A DNA stretch of 32,352 nucleotides from Hydrogenophaga sp. Lineage in GTDB: Bacteria > Pseudomonadota > Gammaproteobacteria > Burkholderiales > Burkholderiaceae_C. The translations under genes were made by a program, and so were the position numbers. The stretch is taken from positions 1 to 32,352 of the forward strand of contig JAGKSX010000056.1 of assembly GCA_018993155.1 (NCBI GenBank). Reading direction: 5' to 3'. Positions 2,482 through 16,861 of this stretch are shown here, one piece after another (the stretch's first letter is position 1; each line of letters begins with the position of its first letter). Under the pieces are notes generated by a model. It did not search any database. It saw only the letters and a list, made by a program, of their open reading frames with translations, and had not been told where the DNA came from.

Positions 2482-4044
2482 TCATACGCTTTCCAGGGCC
2501 TGGTCGAGGTCGGCCAGCAGGTCGTCGATGTGTTCGATGCCGATGGACAGGCGCACCGCGTCTTCGGGCACGCCGGACTTGGCCAGTTCTTCGGGCGAGA
2601 GCTGGCGGTGCGTGGTGGAGGCTGGGTGGGTGGCGAGCGACTTGGCGTCGCCGATGTTCACCAGGCGGGTGAAGAGCTGCAGCGCGTCGAGGAAGCGCGC
2701 GCCGGCCGCACGGCCTTCGCCGGCGGCGGCTTTCACGCCGAAGGTGAGCAGGCCCGAGGCATGGCCGCCCAGGTATTTCAGGGCGAGCGCGTGGTCCGGG
2801 TGGCTGGGCAGGCCGGCGTAGTTCACCCAGCCCACCTTGGCGTGCTGTTCCAGGTGCTTGGCCACGCGCAGGGTGTTGGCGTTGATGCGGTCCAGCCGCA
2901 GCGAGAGCGTTTCGATGCCCTGCAGGATCAGGAAGGCGTTGAAGGGCGAAATGGCCGCGCCGGTGTTGCGCAGCGGCACGACGCGCGCGCGACCGATGTA
3001 GGCCGCCGGGCCCAGGGCCTCGGTGTAGACCACGCCGTGGTAGCTCGGGTCGGGCTCGTTCAGGCGCTTGAAGCGGGCCTTGTGCTGGCCCCAGGGGAAC
3101 TTGCCGGAATCGATGATGGCGCCGCCGATGCTGGTGCCGTGGCCGCCAAGGTATTTCGTGAGCGACTGCACCACGATGTCGGCACCGTGTTCGATCGGGC
3201 GCAGCAGGTACGGCGAGGCAACGGTGTTGTCCACGATCAGCGGCACGCCGTGTTTGTGCGCGATGGCGGCGACGGCCGCGATGTCGGTGATGTTGCCCTG
3301 CGGGTTGCCGATGGACTCGACGAAGATGGCCTTGGTGCGCGCGTCGATCAGCGGCTCGAAACTGGTCGGGTCGCGGTGGTCCGCGAAGCGCGTGGTGATG
3401 CCGAACTGCGGCAGCGTGTGCGCGAAGAGGTTGTAGGTGCCGCCGTAGAGCGCGGTGCTGGAGACGATGTTGTCGCCCGACTCGGCGATGGTCTGGATGG
3501 CGTAGGTCACGGCCGCCTGGCCGGAGGCCAGCGCCAGCGCGGCGATGCCGCCTTCCAGCGAGGCGATGCGCTGTTCCAGCACGTCCTGCGTCGGGTTCAT
3601 GATGCGCGTGGAGGGCCTGCTCGCCCCATTTTTCCAAATGCGAGCGAGGTCAAAACAGCGCCAATCGAGGCGCAGCGCGACGGCCAGACTGGAGGTCTGG
3701 CCTAGAGATGCAACGAAGAGTGGCGCTGTTTTGACCTCGCTCCCTTCGGGTTGCGGCCAAAAAAGCCCTGCGCCGCGTTGCGAAGCCTCGCCGGGCCACC
3801 GGCCCGTCTGCGTTTCGCGCCTTGCGCAGGACTTTTTTGATCCGCAACGCATCTTGGAAAAATGGGGCGAGCAGGCCCTGATGTTGCCGGGCACCTTCAG
3901 GTCGAACAGGTCGGCGCCATGCTGCGCGTTGTCGAAGGCGTAGGCGGCGGTCTGGTAGATCGGCACGGCCACGGCCTTGGTGGTGGGGTCGGGCCGGTAG
4001 CCGGCGTGCACCGAGCGGGTTTCGAATTTCCAGTCTGCGGACAT
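2482..4044 (-). CDS. metY: O-acetylhomoserine sulfhydrylase (MetY) interrupted in frame by a palindromic element
   Basis: This 520-residue PLP enzyme of the Cys/Met metabolism family is the O-acetylhomoserine aminocarboxypropyltransferase type, which makes homocysteine from O-acetylhomoserine and sulfide. The N-terminus (KFETRSVHAGY), NNTVASPY-type segment (VDNTVASPY) and the PLP lysine in QSLTKYLGGHG (about residue 297) are intact. Typical members have about 430 residues. The surplus is a 90-residue stretch, residues 56-145, encoded by a 26-bp-ended inverted-repeat element. It sits between VPGNI and TRIMNPT, where the family has GNIYTRIMNPT. The Tyr of YTR, which binds the PLP phosphate in related enzymes, is replaced by Ser at the junction. 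The frame stays open, so a full-length but possibly inactive protein would be made. An AAGGAGA site precedes the ATG at 4044. Confidence 0.88.
   Translation of the reverse strand: MSADWKFETRSVHAGYRPDPTTKAVAVPIYQTAAYAFDNAQHGADLFDLKVPGNIRACSPHFSKMRCGSKKSCARRETQTGRWPGEASQRGAGLFWPQPEGSEVKTAPLFVASLGQTSSLAVALRLDWRCFDLARIWKNGASRPSTRIMNPTQDVLEQRIASLEGGIAALALASGQAAVTYAIQTIAESGDNIVSSTALYGGTYNLFAHTLPQFGITTRFADHRDPTSFEPLIDARTKAIFVESIGNPQGNITDIAAVAAIAHKHGVPLIVDNTVASPYLLRPIEHGADIVVQSLTKYLGGHGTSIGGAIIDSGKFPWGQHKARFKRLNEPDPSYHGVVYTEALGPAAYIGRARVVPLRNTGAAISPFNAFLILQGIETLSLRLDRINANTLRVAKHLEQHAKVGWVNYAGLPSHPDHALALKYLGGHASGLLTFGVKAAAGEGRAAGARFLDALQLFTRLVNIGDAKSLATHPASTTHRQLSPEELAKSGVPEDAVRLSIGIEHIDDLLADLDQALESV
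3612..3879. mobile_element. MITE-like palindromic element with perfect 26-bp terminal inverted repeats inside metY
   Basis: The termini 3612-3637 and 3854-3879 are perfect 26-bp inverted repeats of each other, beginning AGGGCCTGCTCGCCCC. Inside are a second perfect 22-bp inverted repeat (3642-3663 with 3721-3742), a hairpin GGCCAGAC-N5-GTCTGGCC (3682-3702) and a third, imperfect pair centred on GGGCC-ACC-GGCCC, flanked by AAAAAAG and CTTTTTT tracts. It encodes no transposase and is far too short for one, so a non-autonomous element or a large structured repeat fits best. No target duplication can be recognised. The net gain over the expected sequence is 267 bases (89 codons), which preserves the reading frame. 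Confidence 0.85.
3642..3742. repeat. Inner 22-bp perfect inverted repeat with central hairpin
   Basis: The arms 3642-3663 and 3721-3742 are exact reverse complements, beginning GAGCGAGGTCAAAACAGC. They enclose an 8-bp stem hairpin at 3682-3702. This structure is nested within the metY insertion, directly inside its left terminal repeat, giving a stem within a stem if the strand folds. Confidence 0.85.
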
Positions 4045-4073: not shown

Positions 4074-5441
4074 TCAGGCGGTGGCGGGTTCGCGCGCCGT
4101 TTGAATGGCGGCGGCGGCCGGGTGGGCGGGACGTTTCAGGCCCAGGTGATCGCGCAGGGTGCGGCCGCTGTACTCGGTGCGGAACAGGCCGCGCCGCTGC
4201 AGCTCGGGCACGACAAGCTGCACAAAATCCTTCAGGCCGTGGGGCAGCGTGGGCGCCAGCACGTTGAAGCCGTCGGCCGCGCCGCTGGTGAACCAGTGTT
4301 CGAGCTGGTCGGCGATGGACTCGGCCGTGCCCACCACCGTCCAGTGGCCGCGCGCGCCGGCCACGCGCTCGTAGAGCTGGCGGATCGTCAGGCCGTCGCG
4401 GCGCGCGAGGCCGGCGAACAGTTCCTGGCGGCTCTGCCAGCCTTCGGTCACCGGCAGGTCCTGCGGGAACGGGCCGTCCACCGGGTATTTCGAGAGGTCC
4501 ACGTTGCCGAGGAAGGTGGAGAGCAGGCCGACGCCGAGCACCGGGTCGATCAGGGACTGCAGTTGCTCGAACTTCTCGCGCGCTTCGGCCTCGCTGCGGC
4601 CCACGAAGGGCGAGATGCCGGGCAGGATCTTCAGCGCGTCGGTGGAGCGGCCGTAGGCGGCCAGCTGGCCCTTGAGGCGGTTGTAGAACTGGCGCGCGTC
4701 ATCGGCGGTCTGCTGCGCGGTGAACACCACCTCGGCGCTGGCGGCGGCGAGGTCCTGCCCGTCGCCGGACGAACCGGCCTGCACCAGCACCGGGTGGCCC
4801 TGCGGCGAGCGGCGGGTCTGCAGGCCACCGTGCACCTTGTAGTGCGCACCGTCGTGCGCCACGCGGTGCAGCTTGGCGGGATCGAAGAAGCGGTTGCGGG
4901 CCTTGTCTTCGATGAAGGCGTCGTCTTCCCAGGTGTTCCACAGGCCTTTGACGACCTGCACGTACTCCCGCGCGCGCTCGTAGCGCTGGGCGTGGGCGAT
5001 CTGCTGGTCCAGCCCGAAGCTGCGGGCCTCGAAGTCGCTGCCTGAGGTGACGAGGTTCCAGCCCGCGCGGCCACCACTCAGCTGGTCGAGCGTGGCGTAT
5101 TTGCGGGCCAGGTGGTAAGGGGGCAGGTAGGTGCTGGAGACCGTGGCCACCAGGCCGATGTGCGTGGTGCTCTGCGACAGCGCGGCCAGGGTGAGCAGCG
5201 GATCCAGCGGGTACCAGAGGGCGTTCTTCGCCACCCCTTCGTCGGGCGGGCCGGGCAGGCCCACGTTGTCGGCGAAGAAGATGGCGTCGAACTTCGCGGC
5301 CTCGGCCAGCTGCGTCCACTCGGTGAGCGCGGCGATCTGGCCGCCGGCCGAGGGCACCACGTCCGGGTGCCGCCAGGCGGCCAGGTGGTGACCGGCGCCG
5401 AAGAAGAAGGCACCGAGGTGCATCTGGCGAGGGGAGGTCAT
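4074..5441 (-). CDS. FMN-dependent monooxygenase, NtaA/SnaA/DszA family
   Basis: This 455-residue bacterial luciferase-like flavin monooxygenase uses FMNH2 from a separate reductase to oxidise a small organic substrate. Family marks are the N-terminal LGAFFFGAGHHLAAWRHPD, the segment FDAIFFADN, and GRAGWNLVTSGSDFEARSFG around residue 130, typical of NtaA (nitrilotriacetate), SnaA, DszA and DmoA proteins. The true substrate is not readable. It starts one base after the metQ stop and ends 29 bases before metY, so it is in one operon with a methionine-type transporter and a sulfhydrylase. This context favours cleavage of a carbon-sulfur bond in an imported organosulfur compound, which is inference. 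SsuE at 15118-15702 could supply reduced FMN. Confidence 0.87.
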   Translation of the reverse strand: MTSPRQMHLGAFFFGAGHHLAAWRHPDVVPSAGGQIAALTEWTQLAEAAKFDAIFFADNVGLPGPPDEGVAKNALWYPLDPLLTLAALSQSTTHIGLVATVSSTYLPPYHLARKYATLDQLSGGRAGWNLVTSGSDFEARSFGLDQQIAHAQRYERAREYVQVVKGLWNTWEDDAFIEDKARNRFFDPAKLHRVAHDGAHYKVHGGLQTRRSPQGHPVLVQAGSSGDGQDLAAASAEVVFTAQQTADDARQFYNRLKGQLAAYGRSTDALKILPGISPFVGRSEAEAREKFEQLQSLIDPVLGVGLLSTFLGNVDLSKYPVDGPFPQDLPVTEGWQSRQELFAGLARRDGLTIRQLYERVAGARGHWTVVGTAESIADQLEHWFTSGAADGFNVLAPTLPHGLKDFVQLVVPELQRRGLFRTEYSGRTLRDHLGLKRPAHPAAAAIQTAREPATA

Positions 5442-5442
5442 G

Positions 5443-6240
5443 TCAAAACCCGGCCAGGACCGAGCCCTTGAACTCGGTCTGGATGAAGGCCTTGACTTCG
5501 GCCGACTGGTAGGCCTTCACCAGTTTGGCGACCCAGGGCTTGTCCTTGTCGGCCTCGCGCACGGCGATCAGGTTCACGTACGGGCTCTTGGCGTTTTCCT
5601 GGGCGATGGCGTCCTTGCCCGGGTTCAGGCCGGCGGAGAGCGCGTAGTTGGTGTTGATGGCCGAGGCGTCGAGGTCGTCGAGCGAGCGCGGCAGTTGCGC
5701 GGCGTCGAGCTCCACGAACCTGAGCTTCTTGGGGTTGCTCACCACGTCCAGCGGCGTGGCCTTCAGACCGGCTTCGGGTTTGAGCTTGATGAGGCCCTGG
5801 TCCTGCAGCACCAGCAGCACGCGCCCGCCGTTGGTGGGGTCGTTCGGGATGCCGACCTTGCCGCCTTCGGGCAGGTCCTTCAGGCTCTTGACCTTCTTGC
5901 TGTAGATGCCGATGGGGAAGTTCACCGTGTAGCCGACGGCGGTGAATTTGTAGCCGCGGTCCTTGATCTGGTTGTCCAGGTAGGGCTTGTGCTGGTAGCT
6001 GTTGGCGTCCAGGTCGCCGGCGGCGAGCGCGGCGTTGGGCTGCACGTAGTCGCTGAACTCGACGATCTGGATCTTCAGGCCGTCCTTCTCGGCGATCTTC
6101 TTCACCTGCTCGAAGATCTGCGCGTGCGGGCCGGCGGTGACGCCGATCTTGAGCGGTTTGTCCTGCGCGAGCGCGGGCGCGGCGAAGGCAGCGGCCAGCG
6201 TGAGGGCCAGGGTGGATTGGAGCAGTTGCCGTTTGATCAT
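5443..6240 (-). CDS. metQ: MetQ-type substrate-binding lipoprotein-family protein of a methionine ABC transporter
   Basis: This 265-residue protein is of the NlpA/MetQ family, the periplasmic binding component that delivers methionine or related compounds to MetNI. The signal peptide (about 25 residues ending APALAQ) lacks a lipobox cysteine, so it is likely a soluble periplasmic protein. Family motifs are KIGVTAGPHAQI, DYVQPNAALAAGDLDANSYQHKPYL and GIPNDPTNGGRVL. The ATG at 6240 has an AAGGAA site. It is separated from metI by 180 bases containing hairpin repeat B and a likely promoter, so metQ starts a second transcription unit with the downstream monooxygenase and metY. Confidence 0.92.
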   Translation of the reverse strand: MIKRQLLQSTLALTLAAAFAAPALAQDKPLKIGVTAGPHAQIFEQVKKIAEKDGLKIQIVEFSDYVQPNAALAAGDLDANSYQHKPYLDNQIKDRGYKFTAVGYTVNFPIGIYSKKVKSLKDLPEGGKVGIPNDPTNGGRVLLVLQDQGLIKLKPEAGLKATPLDVVSNPKKLRFVELDAAQLPRSLDDLDASAINTNYALSAGLNPGKDAIAQENAKSPYVNLIAVREADKDKPWVAKLVKAYQSAEVKAFIQTEFKGSVLAGF

Positions 6241-6259
6241 TTCAGGGTTCCTTGTGGTT

Positions 6260-6288
6260 GATAAAAGTTTTCAAAGCGCACGAAACAA
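6260..6288 (-). promoter_or_regulatory. Candidate sigma70 promoter for metQ
   Basis: On the minus strand TTGTTT (6288-6283) and TTTATC (6265-6260) are separated by 17 bases. The predicted start of transcription is about ten bases upstream of the metQ ribosome site. The tract is markedly less GC-rich than its surroundings and lies just downstream of hairpin repeat B. The match is imperfect, hence modest confidence. Confidence 0.4.
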
Positions 6289-6321
6289 CACTTCCGGAGC
6301 GTGTGCCTCGATCCAGAGGCA

Positions 6322-6420
6322 TCAAGGGACGGCTCCGCCGGCCCAAGATGCCGTCCCCCCTCCAAGCGCCGAAGGCGCGCAAGTGAGGGGGGAAGCCGCG
6401 CAGCGGCGCAGGGGGGTGTT
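6322..6420. repeat. GC-rich stop-codon-abutting hairpin repeat, copy B
   Basis: The repeat lies between metI and metQ and touches the metI stop codon (6421-6423). Hairpins: CGGC-TCC-GCCG (6330-6340); a long stem TCCCCCCTC (6354-6362) with GAGGGGGGA (6385-6393) that encloses GCGCC-GAA-GGCGC (6366-6378); and GCCGC-GCA-GCGGC (6395-6407). Compared with copy C, the middle base pair of the long stem changes from C-G to T-A on both sides, a compensatory change. Likely role: transcript 3' end structure or insulation between metI and metQ. Confidence 0.8.
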
Positions 6421-7098
6421 TCATTTCTTGTTCAGGCGGCGCACCAGCCAGTCGCCCAGGCTTTGCACCGCCTGCACGAAGACGATGAGCAGCAGCACCA
6501 CGGCCAGCATCACCTCGGGCAGGAAGCGCTGGTAGCCATAGCGGATGCCGAGGTCGCCCAGGCCGCCGCCGCCGATGGCGCCGGCCATGGCCGAGTAGCC
6601 GGTGAGGCTGACGAGGGTGATGGTGAAACCGGCCACGATGCCGGGGAAGGCCTCGGGCAGCAGCACCTTGAAGACGATCTGCGGGGTGGTGGCGCCCATG
6701 GCTTGCGCGGCTTCGACCAGCCCGCTGTCCACCTCGCGCAGCGAGGTTTCCACCAGGCGCGCGATGAAGGGCGCGGCGGCGATCGTCAGCGGCACCACGG
6801 CGGCGGCCGTGCCGATGGACGAGCCGGTGATGAGGCGCGTGAACGGGATGATCGCGACCAGCAGGATGATGAATGGCGTGGACCGCACGGCATTGACGAT
6901 GCCGCCCACGGTGCGGTTGAAGGCCGCGTTCTGCAGCACGCCGCCGTGGTCGGTGAGGCGCAGCAGCACCCCCAGCGGCACGCCGATGAGCGCACCCACG
7001 GCGCCGGAGATGCCCACCATCACCAGCGTCTCCCAGAAGGAGAGCACGAAGAGGTCGAGCAGGGCCGGCGGGAACCAGGTTTGCAGCTGTTCAAGCAT
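6421..7098 (-). CDS. metI: MetI, methionine ABC transporter permease
   Basis: This 225-residue inner-membrane permease has several hydrophobic segments, beginning with [23 protein letters not shown]. The ABC permease coupling (EAA) region reads [24 protein letters not shown], which contacts Met[25 protein letters not shown] is the usual MetI C-terminal motif. I start at the ATG at 7098 ([11 protein letters not shown]), which overlaps the end of metN by 8 bases and indicates translational coupling. The upstream in-frame ATG at 7131 would add 11 residues without family character. Its stop codon is fused to hairpin repeat B. Confidence 0.92.
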
Positions 7099-8131
7099 GG
7101 GCCACCTCCTGCACCTGCACGCCGGCGCCACGCAGGTGGCTCACGGCGGCTTGCAGCTGCTCTTGCGCGCCACGCGCCAGCACGGCCAGCGTGCCGAAGG
7201 GATGGCCCTGCACCTCGTCGATCTGGCCGTGCACGATGTTCAGGTCCAGCCCGAAGCGGCGCACCAGGTCGGAGAGCAGGGGCTGGTCGGACTCGACGCC
7301 GGCGAACACCAGGCGCAGCAGGCTGGCCGGCGGCTGGCCCGGCACGCCGAGCAGGCCGCGCACGCGCTCCAGCACATTGGCCGGCAGCTCGCGCGGCACC
7401 ACGTCGTCGAGCAGGCTGCGCGTCGTTTCGTTCTGCGGGTCGCTGAACACCTTGAGGGCCTCGCCCTGTTCGACGATCTGCCCGGCCTCCATCACCGCGA
7501 GGCGGTGGGCCACCTGCTTGATCACCTGCATCTGGTGCGTGATGAGCACGATGGTGAGGCCCAGCTCGCGGTTGATCTGCTGCAGCAGCGCGAGGATGGA
7601 GCGGGTGGTTTCGGGGTCGAGCGCGGAGGTGGCTTCGTCCGAGAGCAGCACCTTGGGCTGGCTGGCCAGGGCGCGGGCAATGCCCACGCGCTGTTTCTGC
7701 CCGCCGCTGATCTGGGCCGGGTAGCGGTCGGCCAGCGCGCCCAGGCCCGCGAGTTCGAGCAGCGGGTTCACGCGCGCCTTGATCTGGTGGCGCGAGAGGC
7801 CGGCGAGTTCGAGCGGCAGCGCCACGTTGTCGAACACGGTGCGCGAGGTCAGCAGGTTGAAGTGCTGGAAGACCATGCCGATGTCGCGCCGGGCTTCGCG
7901 CAGGCCGGCGGCGTTCAGCGTGGTGAGGGAGCGGCCGGCGACTGTGACCGTGCCCTGGCTGGGCCGGTTGAGCAGGTTGATGGTGCGCACCAGCGAGCTC
8001 TTGCCCGCGCCGCTGCGCCCGATCACGCCGAAGACCTCGCCGCCGCGGATCTGCAGGTCCACGCCGCGCAGGGCGTGCACCGGCCCCTTGGGGCCGCGGT
8101 AGGTCTGGTGGATGTTGTCGAGAAGGATCAC
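7091..8131 (-). CDS. metN: MetN, methionine ABC transporter ATP-binding protein
   Basis: This 346-residue ATPase powers the MetNIQ importer. Walker A is GRSGAGKSS (residues 38-46); the signature ISGGQKQR and Walker [17 protein letters not shown] follow; the H-loop is LITHQM. The C-terminal roughly 75 residues (from about [13 protein letters not shown]) form the NIL/ACT-like domain that in MetN binds methionine and shuts down transport, so feedback control is expected. The start is a GTG at 8131; no strong ribosome site is visible. It follows hairpin repeat C, 139 bases after the TOBE gene. Confidence 0.93.
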
Positions 8132-8170
8132 GAGGAAATGCCAGGAACGAGGGGGAGTTCGCCAGGGGCA

Positions 8171-8270
8171 CCGCGGAACTGGCTTTGCCAGGCCGCTGGT
8201 GTCGTCCCTCCTCCCAGCGCCGAAGGCGCGCCAGAGAGGAGGGAAGCCGCGAAGCGGCGCAGGGAGGTGT
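8171..8270. repeat. GC-rich stop-codon-abutting hairpin repeat, copy C
   Basis: The repeat lies between the TOBE gene stop (8271-8273) and metN. Hairpins: CTGGC-TTT-GCCAG (8179-8191); the long stem TCCCTCCTC (8205-8213) with GAGGAGGGA (8236-8244) enclosing GCGCC-GAA-GGCGC (8217-8229); and GCCGC-GAA-GCGGC (8246-8258). The order and spacing match copy B. The ends of the first stem also covary with copy A (C-G there, T-A here). Confidence 0.8.
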
Positions 8271-8486
8271 TCACAATTTCGCGATGGAGACTTCGGTGGA
8301 CTTCACGAGCGCGACCACTTCCGAGCCCACCTTCAGGTCCAGGTCGTTCACCGAGCGGGTGGTGATGACGGAGGTGACGATGCCCCAGGGCGTTTCGACA
8401 TCGACTTCGGAGACGACGTCGCCCTTGATGATTTCCTTGACTTTGCCCTTGAACTGGTTGCGCACGTTGATGGCTTGGATGGACAT
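8271..8486 (-). CDS. Small TOBE/Mop-domain molybdate-type binding protein
   Basis: This 71-residue protein is a single Mop/TOBE domain: [29 protein letters not shown], then [31 protein letters not shown]. Such molbindins bind molybdate, tungstate or similar oxyanions as oligomers in the cytoplasm. It lies 41 bases after ssuB in the same direction and is the last gene of the sulfonate unit before hairpin repeat C. Its role there is unclear: molybdate and sulfate are similar oxyanions, so sensing or buffering of oxyanion during sulfate-type uptake is possible, which is inference. AAGGAAA precedes the ATG. Confidence 0.88.
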
Positions 8487-8527
8487 GGTGTTTTCCTTGG
8501 TTTGAATGAAGTGGAGGGAGCAGGGAT

Positions 8528-9334
8528 TCAGACGGCCCAGCGCAGGGCGTGGGCGGGTTGGGTGGGCCAGACCGGGTCGTTCGACGGTGGCGCGCTGTCG
8601 GGCACCTGCAGCACGCGGTCGAGGATGCGTTTCTCGATCGCGGCGAAGGTGGCGTCACCGCGCGAACGCGGGCGCGCCAGCGGCACGCGCTCGTCCAGCG
8701 CGATGGCGCCGTCTTCGATCAGGATCACGCGGTCGGCCAGGGCCACGGCCTCCTGCACGTCGTGCGTGACGAGCAGGGCGGTGAAGCCGTGGCGCTTCCA
8801 CAGGCCTTCGATGAGTTCGTGCATTTCGATGCGGGTGAGCGCATCGAGGGCGCCCAGCGGCTCGTCGAGCAGCAGCAATTGCGGCCGGTGCACCAGGGCG
8901 CGGGCCAGCGAGACGCGCTGGCGCTGGCCGCCCGAGAGCTTGGCCGGCCAGTCGTTGAGGCGGTCGCCCAGACCGACCTGGCCGAGCACGGCCTCGGCGT
9001 CGGCCTTGCGGTCCTTGGGCAGGCCCAGGGCCACGTTGTCGACCACGCGTTTCCAGGGCAGCAGGCGCGCGTCCTGGAACATGATGCGGGTGTCGTCGTG
9101 CAGGCCGTCGACGTTCTTGCCGTCGAGCAGCAGCTCGCCGCCGCTGGCCGGCTCCAGGCCGGCGATGAGGCGCAGCAGCGTGCTCTTGCCGCAGCCGCTG
9201 CGGCCCACGATGGCCACGAACTCTCCGGGCTCGATGGTGAGCTGGTTGTCGCGCAGCACCTCGCGCGCGCCGTAGCGCTTGCTGAGGTGGCGCAGCTGCA
9301 CGCGCACGCCGTGGGTGTCGGTCTTCTCGCTCAT
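8528..9334 (-). CDS. ssuB: SsuB, aliphatic sulfonate ABC transporter ATP-binding protein
   Basis: This 268-residue ATPase of the nitrate/sulfonate/taurine importer family drives uptake of alkanesulfonates. Walker A is GRSGCGKST (residues 44-52), then [21 protein letters not shown] (typical SsuB Q-loop), signature LSGGQRQR, Walker [13 protein letters not shown] and H-loop LLVTHD. The start ATG at 9334 lies 4 bases after the ssuA stop, so the two are tightly coupled. Compared with E. coli SsuB it has a short proline-rich tail. The neighbouring ssuC, ssuA and ssuD support sulfonate rather than taurine or nitrate transport. Confidence 0.93.
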
Positions 9335-9338
9335 GCGT

Positions 9339-10301
9339 TCACCCCTGCGGTTTGAACAGCGCGACGTTCACGGCGTCGACGCGGCGCGGCAGCAGCTTCT
9401 CGGCCAGGAAGGCGTCGGCGATCTTCTGCTGCTCGGTGATGTTCTGCGGCGTGACCGGGCGCACCGCGTAGCTGCGGCGGCCGTTGGCCTGTTCGACGAT
9501 GGCCGCGTCCAGGCCCCAGAAGGGCGCGAGCAGGGCGGCGGCTTCCTTGGGGTTCTGCTTGACCCAGCGGCCGGTCTTCTCCAGCTCGGCGTAGATCACG
9601 CCGAGCACGTCGGGCCGGGCCTGCGCGAAGCGGGTGCTGGCCAGGTAGTAGCGCTGGTACGAGGCCAGGCCGGTGCCGTCGGCGAGCACGCGCGCGCCGG
9701 CCTGCTTCTGCGCGGCGGAGAGGAAGGGGTCCCAGACCACCCAGGCGTCCACGGCGCCTTTCTCGAAGGCGGCGCGGCCATCGGCCGGCGTGAGGTACGC
9801 GGGCTCGATGTCGGCGAAAGACAGGCCGGCTTTTTCCAGCGCGGCGATCAGCAGGTAGTGCGCGCCGGCGGCTTTCGCGAAGGCCACGCGCTTGCCCTTG
9901 AGTTCGCTCACGCTCTTCAGCGGCGAGTCGGCGCGCACCACGATGGCCTGGGCCGTGGGCGAGGGCGCCTCCTGCGCCACGAAGGTGAGCTGCGCGCCGG
10001 CGGCCTGGGCGAACACCGGCACCGTGTCGGCCACGTCGGCGCTGAAGTCCAGGTTGTCGAGGTTGAGCGCTTCGAGCAGCGGCAGGCCGCTGGTGAACTC
10101 GTGCCAGCTCAGCGTGGCGCCCAGCGGCGCGAGGCGCTGTTCCAGCGTGCCCTGCAGGCGCAGCACGGCGATCAGCGTGGACGATTTCTGATAACCCAGG
10201 CGCACGGCGCGTGGCGCGTTGCCCTGGGCCAGGGCGGCACCGGCGGCGAGGGAACCCAGGGCGCCCAGCGCGGCGCGGCGATTGAAGAGGGAGTGCGTCA
10301 T
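9339..10301 (-). CDS. ssuA: SsuA-type sulfonate substrate-binding protein (paralog 1)
   Basis: This 320-residue periplasmic binding protein of the sulfonate/nitrate/taurine class captures alkanesulfonates for SsuBC. The signal [22 protein letters not shown] is twin-arginine-like. Class motifs are [63 protein letters not shown] and [18 protein letters not shown] start at the ATG at 10301; an in-frame ATG at 10379 would put a non-family stretch before the signal. It lies between ssuC and ssuB, so it is the most likely partner of this transporter. Two more paralogs lie upstream at 12856-13821 and 13964-14998. Confidence 0.9.
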
Positions 10302-10326
10302 GGTGGTCGTTCTCGTTGGATGGGGT

Positions 10327-11217
10327 TCAGGGGTTCTGGTAACCGGGGTGCCAGCGCAACCAGTAGCGTTCGAGACCACGGGCGAACACGTCGGCCAGCT
10401 TGCCGAGCGCGGCGTAGAGCAGGATGCCGACGAGCACGATGTCGGTCTGGAGGAACTCGCGGGCGTTCATCGTCAGGTAGCCGATGCCGGCCTGCGCCGA
10501 GATGGTCTCGGCCACGATCAGGATCACCCACATCAGGCCGAGCGAGAAACGCAGGCCGACCAGGATGGAGGACAGCGCGCCGGGCAGGATGATCTGGGTG
10601 TACAGGCCCCAGCGCGAGAGGCCGTAGGTGCGGCCCATCTCGATCAGGCCCGGGTCCACGTTGCGGATGCCGTGGAAGGTGTTGAGGTAGATCGGGAAGA
10701 ACACGGCGACGGCGATCAGGAACAGCTTGGCGACTTCGTCGATGCCGAACCATAGGATCACCAGCGGGATCAGCGCGAGCGCCGGGATGTTGCGCACCAT
10801 CTGGATGCTGGAGTCCAGCAGCGTTTCGAAGAAGCGCACCGAGCCGGTGAGCAGGCCCAGCGCCAGGCCCAGGCCGCCGCCGACGGCCAGGCCGATCAGG
10901 GCGCGGCCGGCGCTCACCTTCACATGGGTCCAGAGTTCGCCGGAGACGGCCAGCGTCCAGAACGCGGCGACCACGTCCAGCGGTGCGGGCAGCACGCGGG
11001 TGGACAGCCAGCCCAGCGAGGACGAGAGCTGCCACAGCACCACCAGCAGCACCGGCACCAGCCAGGGCAGGAAACGCTGCCAGAGGCCGCGCAGCAGCGG
11101 GCCGAGGAAGGCACCGGCGCCACGGCCGGGCAGCAGGCCCCAGCCGGGCGCGTCGATGGTGTCGGGCACCGGGGTCACCGGGGCCTCGCGGAGGGTCTGG
11201 GCCTGGGCTTGCGTCAT
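10327..11217 (-). CDS. ssuC: SsuC, aliphatic sulfonate ABC transporter permease
   Basis: This 296-residue inner-membrane permease has about six hydrophobic segments, beginning FLPWLVPVLLVVLWQLSSSLG, with the binding-protein-dependent coupling region EMGRTYGLSRWGLYTQIILPGAL. Other family marks are IPLVILWFGIDEVAKLFLI and AQAGIGYLTMNAREF. The ATG at 11217 overlaps the VOC gene stop in an ATGA, implying translational coupling; an in-frame open extension to 11853 runs through the VOC gene in another frame and is not used. The N-terminal roughly 40 residues are polar and glycine-rich, longer than in E. coli SsuC. Confidence 0.93.
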   Translation of the reverse strand: MTQAQAQTLREAPVTPVPDTIDAPGWGLLPGRGAGAFLGPLLRGLWQRFLPWLVPVLLVVLWQLSSSLGWLSTRVLPAPLDVVAAFWTLAVSGELWTHVKVSAGRALIGLAVGGGLGLALGLLTGSVRFFETLLDSSIQMVRNIPALALIPLVILWFGIDEVAKLFLIAVAVFFPIYLNTFHGIRNVDPGLIEMGRTYGLSRWGLYTQIILPGALSSILVGLRFSLGLMWVILIVAETISAQAGIGYLTMNAREFLQTDIVLVGILLYAALGKLADVFARGLERYWLRWHPGYQNP

Positions 11218-11594
11218 GTGGCGCTCCCTTGTTGCGAATGGTCGGGTTCGAGGAATTCCAGCGGGTTGCCGGCGGGGTCGTTGACGAAGAAGCGCAGGTG
11301 GCCAGGCAGCGGCCGGCTTTCGTCGATCTCCAGCCCGGCGTCGAGCAGCCTGGCGCGGAAACCGGGCAGGTTCTGCACCTCGAAGGCCAGGTGCGAGGGC
11401 GAGGGCGAAGGGGTCCAGTTCGGCACGGGCACGAGGTCCACGCGCTGCGAGGCGGCGTAGAAGCGCAACGCGTTGCCACCGCCCAGGCGGAATTCCTTCA
11501 AGCCCAGCAACTCGCCGTAGAAATGCCGCACCAGCGATTGCTGGCCAGCCGGGAAGCCGAGCTGCACGTGGTGGATGGAATGGATGGTGCTCAT
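11214..11594 (-). CDS. VOC-superfamily (glyoxalase/dioxygenase-like) protein in the ssu operon
   Basis: This 126-residue protein has two beta-alpha-beta-beta-beta modules of the vicinal oxygen chelate fold. The start SIHHVQLGFPAGQQSLVRHFYGELLGLKE provides a first metal-ligand candidate His, and the C-terminal HLRFFVNDPAGNPLEFLEPDH provides a late His and Glu (GNPLEFLEP), as in metal-dependent members. Function is not identifiable; members include glyoxalases, extradiol dioxygenases and resistance proteins. It is inserted between ssuD (11 bases apart) and ssuC (4-base overlap), so it is co-translated with sulfonate genes. It may handle the aldehyde released by SsuD, which is speculation. Confidence 0.85.
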   Translation of the reverse strand: MSTIHSIHHVQLGFPAGQQSLVRHFYGELLGLKEFRLGGGNALRFYAASQRVDLVPVPNWTPSPSPSHLAFEVQNLPGFRARLLDAGLEIDESRPLPGHLRFFVNDPAGNPLEFLEPDHSQQGSAT

Positions 11595-11605
11595 GGCAGG
11601 GCTCC

Positions 11606-12844
11606 TCAGCTTTGGGCGGTGCGCGGCACGAACACGTTGGCGACCGTCTCGCCGAACGGGCCGGTGAGCGCGGGGCCGGGCAACTTCTCGCGCAGCTTGC
11701 GCGGCAGCAGCGGGAACACGAGTTCGGCGAAGCGGTAGGCCTCTTCGAGGTGCGGGTAGCCGGAGAAGATGAAGTTCTCCAGACCCAGCTCGGCGTACTC
11801 CTGGATGCGAGCGGCCACGGTCTCGCGGTCGCCCACCAGGGCGGTGCCGGCACCGCCGCGCACCAGGCCCACGCCGGCCCACAGGTTGGGGCTGATCTCC
11901 AGGTCGGCGCGGGTGCGTTTGGCGCCGCCGGCGTGCAGCGCGGCCATGCGGCGCTGGCCTTCGGAATCCATCTTGGCGAACGCGGCCTGCGCGCGGTTCA
12001 CCACGTCGTCGTCGAGTTTGCTGATGAGCGCGTCGGCGGCGGCCCAGGCCTCGGCGTCGGTCTCGCGCACGATCACGTGCAGGCGGATGCCGAACGTAAT
12101 CGGGCGGCCGGATCGGGCGCTGGGCCGCCCCAAGCCCGATTGCACCCCCTCGGGGGGCAGCGCAGCGTGGGGGCTGTCGTATTTGGCGGCGCGGGCCTTC
12201 ACGTCGGCCACTTTCTTCGCCACCTCCGCCGGGGGCTCGCCCCAGGTGAGGTAGGTGTCCACCTGTTCGGCCGCGAGCTCGTGCGCGGCTTCGGAAGAAC
12301 CGCCGAAGTACACCGGCGGGTGGGGGTGCTGCAGCGGCGGGAAGAACAGCTTGGCGCCCTTGACCTGCAGGTGCTGGCCGTCGTAGTCGAAGGTCTCGCC
12401 TTCGTGGCTGCGCGTGAGGATCTCGCGCCAGATGCGGATGAACTCGGCCGACTGCTCGTAGCGCTGCGCGTGGTCCAGGAACACGCCGTCGCCTTCGAGC
12501 TCGGCGCGGTCGCCGCCGGTGACGAGGTTGATGAGCAAGCGGCCGTTGGAGAGGCGGTCGAAGCTGGCGGCCATGCGCGCGGCCAGCGCCGGCTGGTGCA
12601 GGCCGGGGCGCACGGCCACCAGGAATTTCAGCCGCTGCGTCACCGGCAGCAGGCTGGCGGCCACCACCCAGGGGTCTTCGCAGGAACGGCCGGTGGGAAT
12701 CAACACGCCTTCGTAGCCCAGGCTGTCGGCGGCTTGCGCGACCTGCTTGAGGTAGTCGTGGTTGAGCTGCCGCCCGCCCTGCGCCGTGCCGAGGTAACGG
12801 CTGTCGCCGTGGGTGGGGATGAACCAGAAGATGTTGAGACCCAT
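11606..12844 (-). CDS. ssuD: SsuD, FMNH2-dependent alkanesulfonate monooxygenase with an in-frame repeat insertion
   Basis: This enzyme converts alkanesulfonates plus FMNH2 and O2 to aldehyde and sulfite. The 412-residue protein aligns by eye with Ssu[88 protein letters not shown] and the C-terminal [20 protein letters not shown]. coli SsuD has 381 residues. The excess is a 23-residue segment ([13 protein letters not shown]...) before [17 protein letters not shown], encoded by the repeat at 12110-12178. The site is a surface-type connection ahead of a core strand, so activity may survive. The gene follows paralog 2 of SsuA by 11 bases. Confidence 0.93.
12110..12178. repeat. 69-nt GC-rich repeat inserted in frame in ssuD (copy D type)
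   Basis: The stretch holds CCCCCTCGGGGG-type self-complementary sequence (12144-12156), then GCAGCGCAGCG, with GGGCCGCCCC at the other side. Its length of 69 keeps the reading frame, adding 23 codons absent from other SsuD proteins. It resembles the GC-rich hairpin repeats between genes in this window in style but not base for base. Exact ends are estimated from where the SsuD similarity resumes. Confidence 0.65.
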
Positions 12845-12855
12845 GGCCGCTCCCC

Positions 12856-13821
12856 TCAGCTCGCGTTCACCGCAGCCTCAAGCACGTTGATCTTTTTCGG
12901 GATCAGCTTGAGGTTGAAGAAGGTGTCGGCGATGACCTGCTGTTCCTGCAGGATGGCCCTGGTGATGGGGCCGGTGCCGTAGACCTGGCGGGTCACGGAG
13001 CGGTCCACCACCGGCTTGGGCAGGCCCCACAGCGGCGCGAACTCGGCGGCGAGTGCATCGCGGTTGGCGCTGCCCCACTGGTCGAGCTTGTTGATCTCCT
13101 CGATCACGATCCTGATCACGTCGGCGTTCTTCGCCGCGTAGTCCAGCGTGGAGAAGTAGTAGGCGCGGTTGTTCACCACGCCGGTGGCGTCGGCCAGGAT
13201 GCGGCCGTTCAGGCCCACCTCGGCGGCGGCCAGGAACGGGTCCCAGATCACCCAGGCGTCGACGGCGCCTTTTTCGAAGGCGGCGCGCGCATCGGCCGGC
13301 GGCAGGAAGACGGACTGCACGTCGTCGTACTTCAGGCCGTTCTTCTCCAGCAGCTTGACCAGGAAGTAGTGCACGTTGGAGCCCTTGTTGTAGGCGACCT
13401 TCTTGCCTTTGAGGTCGGCCACGCTCTTGGTGGCCGAGTCCTTGGGCACGAGCACGGCTTCGGTGGCGGGGCGCGGCACGGTGGCGGCCACGTAGGCCAG
13501 CGGTGCGCCGGCGGCCTGCGCGAAGATGGGCGGGGCTTCGCCCACGTCGCCGAAGTCGATCGAGCCGACGTTGAGTGCTTCGAGCTGCACCGGGCCGGCG
13601 GTGAATTCGGTCCAGCTGATCTTCACGCCCAGGGGCGCGAGGCGCTGTTCCAGCGTGCCCCGGCCCTTGAGCAGGCTCAGGAAGCCCTTCTGGTGGCCGA
13701 CGCGGAACACGCGGTTGGCGGTCTGGGCCTGCGCGGGCAGGCCGGGCAGCGAGGCGAGGGCGGCGGCGCCCACGCCGGTGAGGACGAAGCGGCGGCGGTT
13801 GGAGAAATCGTTGTGGCTCAT
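12856..13821 (-). CDS. SsuA-type sulfonate substrate-binding protein (paralog 2)
   Basis: This 321-residue periplasmic binding protein is of the sulfonate class. A strong Tat signal, [26 protein letters not shown], is followed by [82 protein letters not shown] and [18 protein letters not shown] start at the ATG at 13821, which gives a proper Tat signal. An in-frame ATG at 13953, only 10 bases after the preceding stop, would add a 44-residue leader of unknown meaning. No dedicated permease or ATPase accompanies it, so it probably shares SsuBC and widens substrate range, which is inference. Confidence 0.87.
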
Positions 13822-13963
13822 GGTGGTGGTGTTCTTTGAAAGGGTCAGGACGCTGCGCGCTTTCGCGGCGGCGATGCTCCAGGAGGCCGCGGTGACGGCC
13901 AGCAGCTGGGCGATGTGGCGGCGCAGGTCGGCCGCACTGAAGGGCTTGGACATGGCGGGCGCC

Positions 13964-14998
13964 TCAGGGCTGGGCGACGACGACGGCTTCGTTGACCTTG
14001 ATCGCCTTGGGGATCAGCTTGAGTTCGAAGAAGGTGTCGGCGATCTTTTGCTGGTCGGCGGCCACGGCGGGCGTGATCGGCTTGACGTTGAACTCGTAGC
14101 GCTGCAGCGCGAGCTCGACCACGTCGACCGGCAGGCCTTGCAGCGGGGCGATGAGTTCGGCCGCCTGGCGCAGGTTCTTCTTGAGCCAGATGCCTTGCGC
14201 CACGGAGTCTTCGAACAGGGCTTCGATCACCTTGGGGTTCTTGCTGACGAAGTTGCGCGCGCCCAGGTAGTACTGGTAGTTGTTGACCACGTTGCCCGTG
14301 CCATCGGCCAGCACGCGGGCGCCGGTGGCTTTTTCGGCGGCGGCCTGGAACGGGTCCCAGATCACCCAGGCGTCCACGTTCCTGCTTTCGAAGGCGGCGC
14401 GTCCGTCGGCCGGGGCCAGGTAGACGGGCGTGATGTCGGTGATCTTCAGGCCGTGTTTTTCCAGTTGCTTCACCAGCAGGTAGTGCACGTTGCTGCCCTT
14501 GTTGAGCGCGACTTTCTTGCCCTTGAGGTCGGCCACCGACTTGATGGGCGAGTCCCGGGTGACGAGGATGGCCTCGGCGCGCGGTGCGGCGGGGTCGTGG
14601 CCGAAGTAGACGAACTGCGCGCCGGCGGCCTGCGCGAAGATGGGTGGGGCTTCGCCCACGTAGCCCACGTCCACCGCGCCGACGTTGAGGCCTTCGAGCA
14701 GCTGCGGGCCGGCCGGAAACTCGACCCACTTCACGCCGAAGCCCAGCGGGGCAAGTTTTTTCTCCAGCGTGCCTTGCGCCTTCTGCAGCACGAACAGGCT
14801 GGCCGACTTCTGGTAGCCGATGCGCAACTCGCCCTTTGCCTGGGCTTTGGCCTCGGGCACCGGCAGCAACAGCAGGGCCAGGCCGAAGGCGGCGATGACG
14901 AAGACCAGGAAGCCGATGGCCCATTGCTTCAGGCGGCTGAAGCGCGAGGGCTCGACCGGCACGCCGGCCTCGGGGTGGTGTTGAAACAGTTCACTCAT
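13964..14998 (-). CDS. SsuA-type sulfonate substrate-binding protein (paralog 3) with cytoplasmic N-terminal extension
   Basis: This 344-residue sulfonate-class binding protein has the motifs [75 protein letters not shown] and [17 protein letters not shown]. Unlike its paralogs, about 25 polar residues precede a single long hydrophobic helix (WAIGFLVFVIAAFGLALLLL), ending in AKAQA, with no twin arginines. It could be cleaved or remain anchored in the inner membrane. The ATG at 14998 is preferred, with AGAGGAA seven bases upstream; ATG codons at 15004 and 15046 are in frame. It lies 119 bases after ssuE. Confidence 0.87.
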   Translation of the reverse strand: MSELFQHHPEAGVPVEPSRFSRLKQWAIGFLVFVIAAFGLALLLLPVPEAKAQAKGELRIGYQKSASLFVLQKAQGTLEKKLAPLGFGVKWVEFPAGPQLLEGLNVGAVDVGYVGEAPPIFAQAAGAQFVYFGHDPAAPRAEAILVTRDSPIKSVADLKGKKVALNKGSNVHYLLVKQLEKHGLKITDITPVYLAPADGRAAFESRNVDAWVIWDPFQAAAEKATGARVLADGTGNVVNNYQYYLGARNFVSKNPKVIEALFEDSVAQGIWLKKNLRQAAELIAPLQGLPVDVVELALQRYEFNVKPITPAVAADQQKIADTFFELKLIPKAIKVNEAVVVAQP

Positions 14999-15117
14999 GA
15001 TCATTTCCTCTGTGACGAAGGCGCAGGCAACAGCCGTCCAGGCCACCTGCGCGGTGGCTGAAAAAAACGAATGGGGATGCGGGCGGGATCGGCCGGGTGG
15101 TCCCGGCTCGCAGCGGC

Positions 15118-15702
15118 TCAGACGCTACATCGCACCTGGGCGAACGGCACGGGCGCGAACCCGGCCGCGACCGGCATTCGCAGGCCTTCGTGGAGGAGGG
15201 TGTTCACGGCGTCGTCCAGCCGGTCACCGATCTCGGTGCCGACGTGGTACTGGCCTTCGGTGTCCTTCGGGATCTGCGCATCGGTGGCGTAGACCCCGGG
15301 AAGGATGTGCCGCGCCGCGAGCGACTGCAGCACGGGGCGCAGCGCGTAGTCGAGCGCGAGCATGTGGTGCGGGCTGCCGCCGGTGGCCAGCGGCAGCACC
15401 ACCTTGCCCTTGAGGGCGGATTGCGGCAGCAGGTCCAGGAAGACCTTGAGCACACCGCTGTAGGCGGCCTTGTAGACCGGGGTGGCCACGACCACGGCGC
15501 GCGCGGTCTCGACCTGGCTCAGCGCGGCGCGGATGGACTTGTGGCCCACGTCGGCCAGCAGCAGCGCCTGGGGGGACAGGTCCCGGATGTGCAGGCGTTC
15601 GATCAGCGCGTGGCGCAGGCCCAGCCGTTGTGACACCGCATCGAGCAGCGCCGCCGAGCGCGAGTGCTCGGACGGGCTGCCAGCGATCAGGAGAATGGAC
15701 AC
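15118..15702 (-). CDS. ssuE: SsuE, NAD(P)H-dependent FMN reductase
   Basis: This 194-residue flavodoxin-fold reductase supplies FMNH2 to SsuD and perhaps to the NtaA-like monooxygenase. Family marks are the N-terminal ILLIAGSPSEHSRSAALLD (flavin phosphate loop), VVVATPVYKAAYSGVLKVFLDLLPQ and the SsuE-typical GGSPHHMLALDYALRPVLQSLAA. The start is a GTG at 15702 with AGGGAA upstream. It lies 54 bases after the sulfate-binding protein gene, in the same direction. The 119 bases to the next gene hold no feature I recognise. Confidence 0.93.
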   Translation of the reverse strand: MSILLIAGSPSEHSRSAALLDAVSQRLGLRHALIERLHIRDLSPQALLLADVGHKSIRAALSQVETARAVVVATPVYKAAYSGVLKVFLDLLPQSALKGKVVLPLATGGSPHHMLALDYALRPVLQSLAARHILPGVYATDAQIPKDTEGQYHVGTEIGDRLDDAVNTLLHEGLRMPVAAGFAPVPFAQVRCSV

Positions 15703-15756
15703 GGTGCGGTTCCCTGAGACGTTGTGCGTGCTTGGTGTGTGACAGCGCGAGGCTTC

Positions 15757-16770
15757 TTACTTCTTGGTGTAGATCTGGTCGAAGCTGCCACCGTCGGAGA
15801 AATGGACCTTGGCCGCTTTCTCCCAGCCGCCGAAGGTGTCCTCGATCTTGAACAGGTTGATCTTGGGCAGTTGCTTGGCGTACTTGGCCTGGGCCTTGGC
15901 CGAGGTCGGGCGGTAGAAGTGCTTGCCGATGATGTCCTGCGCCTCTTCGGTGTACAGGAACTCCAGGTAGGCCTGGGCCACGGCGCGCGTGCCCTTCTTG
16001 TCGACGTTCTTGTCGACGATGGTCACGGCCGGCTCGGCCAGGATGGACAGCGAGGGGTAGACGAAGTCGACCTTGTTGCCGAATTCCTTCTCCAGAAGGT
16101 AGGCCTCGTTTTCCCAGGCGATCAGCACGTCGCCCTGGTTGCGCTGCGAGAAGGTGATGGTGGAGCCGCGCGCGCCGGTGTCGAGCACGGGCACGTTGTT
16201 GTAGAGCTTGCCCACGAACTCCTTGGCCTTGTCGTCGCTGCCGTACTTGCGCTTGGCGAATTCCCAGGCGGCGAGGTAGTTCCAGCGCGCGCCGCCGGAG
16301 GTCTTGGGGTTGGGGGTGATGACCTTGACGTCGGGGCGGATCAGGTCGTCCCAGTCCTTGATGTTCTTGGGGTTGCCCGCGCGGGTCACGAGCACGATGG
16401 TGGAGGCGTAGGGCGTGCTGTTGAGCGGCAGGCGCTTCTGCCAGTCCTTGGGGATCCAGTTGCCGTGGTCGTGCAGGGCGTCGGTGTCGCCGGCCAGGGC
16501 CAGGGTGGCCACGTCGGCGTCCAGGCCGTCGATGATGGAGCGGGCCTGTTTGCCCGAGCCGCCGTGGCTTTGCTTGATGCTCACGTCCTGGCCGGTCTTG
16601 GCCTTCCAGAACTTGGTGAAGGCGGCGTTGTACTCGACGTAGAGCTCGCGCGTCGGGTCGTACGACACGTTGAGCAGGGTCACCGGCGCGGGCTGGGCCA
16701 CGGCGGTGAGCGCGCTGGCGGTGAGGGCGGTGGCAGCGAAGGCCTGGATCAGTTGGCGGCGGGTGGTCAT
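15757..16770 (-). CDS. sbp: Periplasmic sulfate/thiosulfate-binding protein
   Basis: This 337-residue binding protein of the Sbp/CysP family captures sulfate or thiosulfate for a CysTWA transporter. Family motifs are [68 protein letters not shown], and [29 protein letters not shown]. The signal [22 protein letters not shown] is Tat-like. I prefer the ATG at 16770, with AGGAAC just before it, over the in-frame ATG at 16782. No sulfate permease or ATPase genes occur in the window, so the partners must be elsewhere. It is the first gene of the long sulfur block. Confidence 0.92.
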
Positions 16771-16861
16771 GTCGTTCCTCATGGGGATGCGTTGAAGGGA
16801 TGCCGGATGATCCTTTCAAAGCCACGGATAAGGAACGAATGGTTTTTTGGTTGTTTATTAC
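16771..16861 (-). promoter_or_regulatory. AT-rich upstream region of the sulfur block (candidate CysB-controlled promoter region)
   Basis: This 91-base gap is one of the few AT-rich tracts in the window (16840-16861 especially). It lies upstream of the first gene of the sulfur block. I cannot assign -35 and -10 boxes with confidence; activator-dependent CysB promoters often lack a good -35. Call rests on composition and position only. Confidence 0.35.

Follow-up and report, generated by a model that had tools for sequence, protein, structure and literature searches.

RUP, Correia/NEMIS and ERIC are small mobile repeats, and in this they resemble the 268 bp palindromic family described here. 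All three are named in the consulted excerpt of PMC3110155, where BRE, the Beta-proteobacterial repeat element, which is a Bordetella repeat of 75–91 bp with some copies in tandem and some inside genes, was also counted in Polaromonas JS666 (29), Rhodoferax, Acidovorax and Delftia (Hot et al. 2011). MITEPsy1 of Pseudomonas syringae, which is marked 'IS5?' in PMC3189936, is 100 nt long and has a 4 nt duplication, CTAG or YTAA; the Rickettsia palindromic elements are found in frame in many genes (PMC10969869, in excerpt). The kind of element reported here is already known, both from MITEs with IS5-like ends and from the in-frame palindromes in Rickettsia. A description of the 268 bp family itself was not found in the open-access literature searched.

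The window (the whole stretch of Hydrogenophaga sp. DNA that was analysed, 32,352 bp) carries a metY-like O-acetylhomoserine sulfhydrylase frame of 520 residues on the minus strand (2482–4044), which is matched by PF01053 and TIGR01326 in two stretches each. The frame is interrupted by an element at 3612–3879 and stays open across it. Judged by comparison of sequences, this segment very probably belongs to a MITE family that occurs in Comamonadaceae and their kin, was mobilised in trans by a transposase of the IS5 family and has left the enzyme inactive or impaired. Beside metY, positions 4074–16782 encode two luciferase-like monooxygenases, an NlpA lipoprotein, an ABC transporter with a NIL domain and three NMT1-like binding proteins; this neighbourhood is probably a sulfur or methionine uptake cluster.

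The element measures 268 bp from terminal A to terminal T; these two bases are the inner halves of the expected TA pairs and enclose 266 bp. It carries no gene of its own. The perfect 26 bp terminal repeats and the nested inner repeats reported by the initial annotation were recovered by a program search: the 26 nt inverted repeats at 3612–3637 and 3854–3879 are perfect, and an inner inverted pair of 25 nt (3642–3666 and 3718–3742) matches at 96 %. The terminal repeats belong to an outer stem (left half 3612–3641, right half 3849–3879), which encloses arm 1, a hairpin with internal loops (3642–3742), a short linker hairpin CTTCGGG (3743–3749; helix 6 of the consensus structure) and arm 2, a hairpin of 99 bp (3750–3848). 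A 54-base core of arm 2 (3772–3825) is matched alone in many genomes and also in other hairpin repeats. Folding was compared with dinucleotide shuffles and gave z −12.6 for the DNA plus strand and z −11.5 for the RNA minus strand; in each case 0 of 200 shuffles were as good.

The element is repeated in its own genome, at five places, two of them at contig ends. At the rank of family, matches were obtained in 92 of 299 genomes (E ≤ 0.001), many of them partial and often to the arm 2 core only; within the genus 35 of 67 genomes were matched at 1e-10, again with many partial or core-only matches. In a sample of the class (274 genomes) the own genome alone was matched, with two candidates scored per genome, a procedure by which weak hits can be missed. 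A DNA pattern scan returned 71 stretches, from records named Hydrogenophaga, Polaromonas, Ramlibacter, Acidovorax, Simplicispira, Caenimonas and others. Neither plasmids, searched with two versions of the element, nor phages, searched with one, gave a match, and no hit at E 1e-5 was obtained with element queries in three viral contigs that hold an end-like pattern. In total 172 places were located, a number that includes duplicates between collections and one non-member (L096); 147 are distinct by their flanks, and 99 measure exactly 268 bp, 31 measure 267 bp and 15 measure 269 bp. Being short and multicopy, with terminal inverted repeats and without a transposase gene, the family has the features of a MITE.

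Several other forms were seen. Arm 1 is missing from single-arm forms of 165–171 bp (L025, L149, L150 and L091). Variants of 297–299 bp (L151 in G358:C13, L134 and L135) contain an extra short arm inside arm 2, and L151 carries arm 1 in inverted orientation, as though the arms were exchangeable modules. Arrays with a period of ∼165–167 bp and with the arm 2 core hairpin occur at L152 (G086:C16:241500-243700) and L153 (G263:C6:526500-528000). Copies L003, L077, L088, L106 and L111 end at, or at most 2 bases from, CTCCT (a ribosome-binding site when read on the other strand), as though they were placed just upstream of genes.

Ends of the same type were found on autonomous insertion sequences. 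An 824 bp insertion sequence in two genomes of the genus (L334 and L332, genomes with 11 and 7 element matches) has the ends GGGC[C/G]TGTTAACAC, from which L332 deviates by one base at one of its ends. Three plasmid insertion sequences in Variovorax, Polaromonas and Cupriavidus (L340, L341 and L342), whose annotation is IS5 family transposase, end in a similar way; the lengths range from 813 to 824 bp. The inverted ends of all five fit GGGCNTGTTNACA (L332 and L340 each with a single mismatch at one end), and all five lie between TA dinucleotides, with C or T before and G after. Two proteins of L334 match DUF4096 and DDE_Tnp_1, and its two frames scored 105.5 and 103.4 bits against the IS5 family model NF033580, each covering a half and each just under the cut-off of 110. 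The consensus of the MITE family differs from the insertion sequence ends by 1–2 mismatches in 14 bases (three of the five compared); the metY copy differs by more, at 4–5 of 14 bases, and its two ends have drifted together. As a control, 1.37 Mb of other loci were scanned, and one inverted pair of IS5-type ends was found, in L299. There, on a contig classed as viral, the ends stand 817 bp apart (∼8443–9260); they perhaps mark a further insertion sequence of the partner family.

The own genome was searched for the partner with 0 matches to PF13340, 0 to DDE_3 and two PF01609 hits that lack an inverted pair of such ends; since no such insertion sequence was seen there, the partner has been lost, is unassembled or is too divergent. 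Exact 14-base ends were sought in 40 genomes, and among the matches listed there was no opposed pair at the distance of an insertion sequence. A partner of the IS630 type with DDE_3 was rejected: 5 of 13 genomes contained a match, but matching ends in an inverted pair accompanied none of them.

The target was surveyed at 288 ends, of which 236 have T/A as the outer base and 269 a pyrimidine as the next base; the inner A/T is better kept, at 279, and 95 of 144 copies stand between two TA dinucleotides, as a 2 bp duplication would leave them. Like the five insertion sequences, the MITE goes preferentially to YTAR targets, most often CTAG. Where an empty site was available for comparison (metY, L118 and L069/L072), the bases adjoining the element differ from those of the empty site, and no clean target duplication was seen. 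Copies L028, L020 and L017 fit either no duplication, with insertion between C and A or between T and G, or a TA duplication with one copy mutated.

From these comparisons we infer mobilisation in trans and the following order of events. An IS5-family transposase would recognise ends like AGGGC[C/G]TGTT[A/C]ACAC and move the MITE in trans into YTAR targets around a TA, which in metY would be the TA of the TAC (Tyr) codon. A full, regular insertion at this TA would add 268 bp and would give a stop at the first codon (ATC TAG) and a +1 shift, because 268 = 3 × 89 + 1. Removal of the T would take away the in-frame TAG and restore the reading frame, leaving 90 foreign residues in place of the Tyr.

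The junctions were compared with the empty site of the nearest relatives, two members of the same genus with proteins of 431 residues and 94 % and 90 % identity. On the coding strand the empty site reads ATC TAC AC., and the occupied site reads ATC AGG GCC ... CCC TCC ACG, with two differences: one T is missing and TAC (Tyr) has become TCC (Ser). The missing T belongs to the N-terminal-side junction (3879–3880), at which the TA expected from the target survey would be short by one base. The change to TCC lies at the C-terminal-side junction (3610–3612, minus strand); without it, a duplicated TA would presumably have remade the Tyr codon. The protein junction reads ASRPSTRIMNPT. All 29 other fetched metY loci have G[N/H]xY[T/S]R..NPT and no insert (a match in a different frame of L040 was set aside as due to chance), with the Tyr two residues ahead of the Arg of RxxNPT where Ser stands here. 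The proposal of the initial annotation that a palindromic element had been inserted into metY with loss of the Tyr is thereby borne out, and the possibility it had raised that all orthologues carry the segment does not hold. Its estimate of 520 residues instead of about 430 also agrees with the relatives: the net gain over 431 is 89 residues (267 bases), since one Tyr has given way to 90 foreign residues.

The open frame through the element had been called noteworthy. It is indeed open, but it is unremarkable, because the frame used in metY is free of stops in 85 of 156 located copies, a count that includes duplicate records, compared with 1610 of 7800 resamples from a first-order Markov model. 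Openness of this frame characterises the family, and the in-frame junction is particular to the metY copy. Nor does the element as such retain the frame: an insertion of 268 bp shifts it, and the genic copies L028 and L020 are, by our reading, frameshifted. The gene interrupted by the L028 copy (G194:C16) is presumably a sulfatase, as judged from motifs in its translation. A coding-phase test was passed by 8 of 145 copies, six of which were read: the metY copy and the frameshifted L028 copy interrupt a gene, and the other four lie, by our reading, between genes (L003 and L219 were left unread, and L020 is outside the eight). Fourteen frames, in 12 of 144 copies, are open through the element with 50 codons on each side; by eye, the metY copy alone among these 12 has flanks that both show the GC pattern of coding sequence in the frame concerned. 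Genic copies are too few for a test of in-frame bias across the family.

Two other origins for the repeat were weighed. Among 66 genomes searched within the genus, 57 have a Y1_Tnp gene, and all but two of these gave a single match; this would suit a repeat of the REP/REPIN type moved by a Y1 (RAYT) transposase. In the 30 Y1 loci that were fetched (L269–L298), however, the best match to the element reached only E 0.07, and at least 14 of the 30 have inverted GGGGTCAGATTCC-like repeats instead, mostly ∼820 bp apart; as the element ends match those of IS5-family elements, the Y1 partner was rejected as largely refuted, and this origin is extremely improbable. The other origin follows from co-variation of the arms. 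In an alignment of 42 copies, hand-chosen from 66 references, 97.1 % of cells were paired (84.3 % in shuffles), double changes were found in 76 of 101 pairs (33.3 in shuffles, 31–42 when slid) and the covariation score was 0.357 (0.112 shuffled, 0.05–0.06 slid); these controls favour the structure, because it was built on the alignment on which it was tested and because relatedness among copies is lost in the shuffles. Among 104 copies, the arms within a copy mismatch by 2–6 %, copies differ from one another by 11–24 %, and where they differ both sides do so in 57–79 % of cases. Such pairing, together with some invariant loop motifs, would fit a structured functional RNA or regulatory hairpin for which spread by transposition is secondary. 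Yet Rfam covariance models gave 0 matches up to E 5 (window 3500–4000), and the unpaired columns as a whole diverge by 0.211 over 72 columns, no less than most of the arms. Three mostly G–T columns are left unrepaired in the arms; outside these, G–T mismatches exceed A–C mismatches modestly (126 versus 87), so that no clear transcribed strand is indicated. The matching of the arms could result from selection on a folded RNA or DNA, or from repair of one arm from the other, although the unrepaired G–T columns somewhat favour selection. A functional RNA as the primary identity of the repeat is quite unlikely.

At metY itself, an assembly or sequencing artefact and a working enzyme have to be set against inactivation by a MITE. 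The genome is a draft of 176 contigs with two copies, neither of them that in metY, at contig ends, and the single-base state of the junction, taken alone, could still be an error. The assembly error considered by the initial annotation is nevertheless very improbable: both flanks belong to one metY, the outer arms match perfectly over 26 nt, and the copy was not borrowed from elsewhere in the genome, where its closest counterpart reaches only 90 % identity. A protein of 520 residues that works fully or partly, the in-frame deletion having been selected and the MITE now encoding a tolerated segment, would correspond to what has been proposed for Rickettsia palindromic elements; in-frame fusions by these and by MITEs are described in the excerpt of PMC10969869. 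It would fit the single missing T, which both removes the TAG and restores the frame. It would also fit the 375 codons downstream of the insert, which look constrained and without decay. Compared with G300 they contain 71 synonymous and 21 non-synonymous differing codons, the residues private to this copy number 8 (11 and 29 in two relatives), and one change was found at 187 columns that are invariant in 14 relatives. This pattern does not favour an old pseudogene and fits a recent insertion as well as continued selection. A recent insertion is also what the perfect 26-pair ends point to, and this alone might account for the lack of decay. The insert replaces the conserved Tyr just ahead of RxxNPT, and paralogues among the Cys/Met PLP enzymes of the same genome (C100, 49 %; C22, 39–41 %) may cover a loss of MetY. 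A working enzyme is considered unlikely. A shallow AlphaFold model (12 sequences) gave pLDDT 20–28 for the insert, but the 55 residues before it score equally low, so that the model is uninformative.

Inactivation is preferred to a tolerated insert. In Cys/Met PLP enzymes the Tyr and Arg of the Y-x-R-x-x-NPT motif bind the PLP phosphate; since the foreign segment directly precedes this Tyr-x-Arg position, the 520-residue MetY is likelier to be inactive or impaired. The cryptic pseudogene suggested by the initial annotation remains the likelier reading, with the qualification that the 375 downstream codons are without decay, and for its suggestion that the element is removed in some way the sequence offers no sign of a self-removing mechanism. 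A more elaborate account, in which the family is a composite structured mobile element with IS5-type ends around hairpin modules that are possibly BRE, its pairing being maintained by selection that acts on folded nucleic acid and not on sequence, and in which the metY copy has been captured as a coding part of an enzyme still under selection, is likewise unlikely.

On the preferred reading, in which an IS5-family transposase mobilised this MITE copy in trans, a palindromic repeat that is widespread in Comamonadaceae is linked to a concrete candidate family of insertion sequences and to a target. Through the compensatory changes in its arms, the question why elaborate folds persist in some bacterial MITEs becomes testable. 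Should the enzyme just be dead, which we consider likelier, the metY gene itself is ordinary; the copy in it is nonetheless a natural case in which to ask if a MITE can become part of an enzyme.

Compared with the systems named at the outset, as far as the excerpts of their sources go, the metY copy shares with the Rickettsia palindromic elements a palindrome that is read in frame within a metabolic gene. It differs in that frequent in-frame residence in genes was not seen here: there is one clear case, and two genic copies are frameshifted. With MITEPsy1 the family shares small size, the lack of a transposase, inverted-repeat ends like those of an insertion sequence and the preference for CTAG/YTAA targets, whereas MITEPsy1 has 100 nt and other ends, and the present family has 268 bp, two long co-varying arms and no clean duplication in the comparisons made. 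BRE was compared by its description rather than by its letters, and the excerpt of that description contains neither IS5-type ends nor a composite. Like BRE, however, the core of the 99 bp arm 2 recurs alone and in arrays, those at L152 and L153 recalling the tandem BRE of Bordetella, and a record of Polaromonas JS666 (L253) contains the end pattern of the element. As a lead, BRE may be arm 2 of the 268 bp element.
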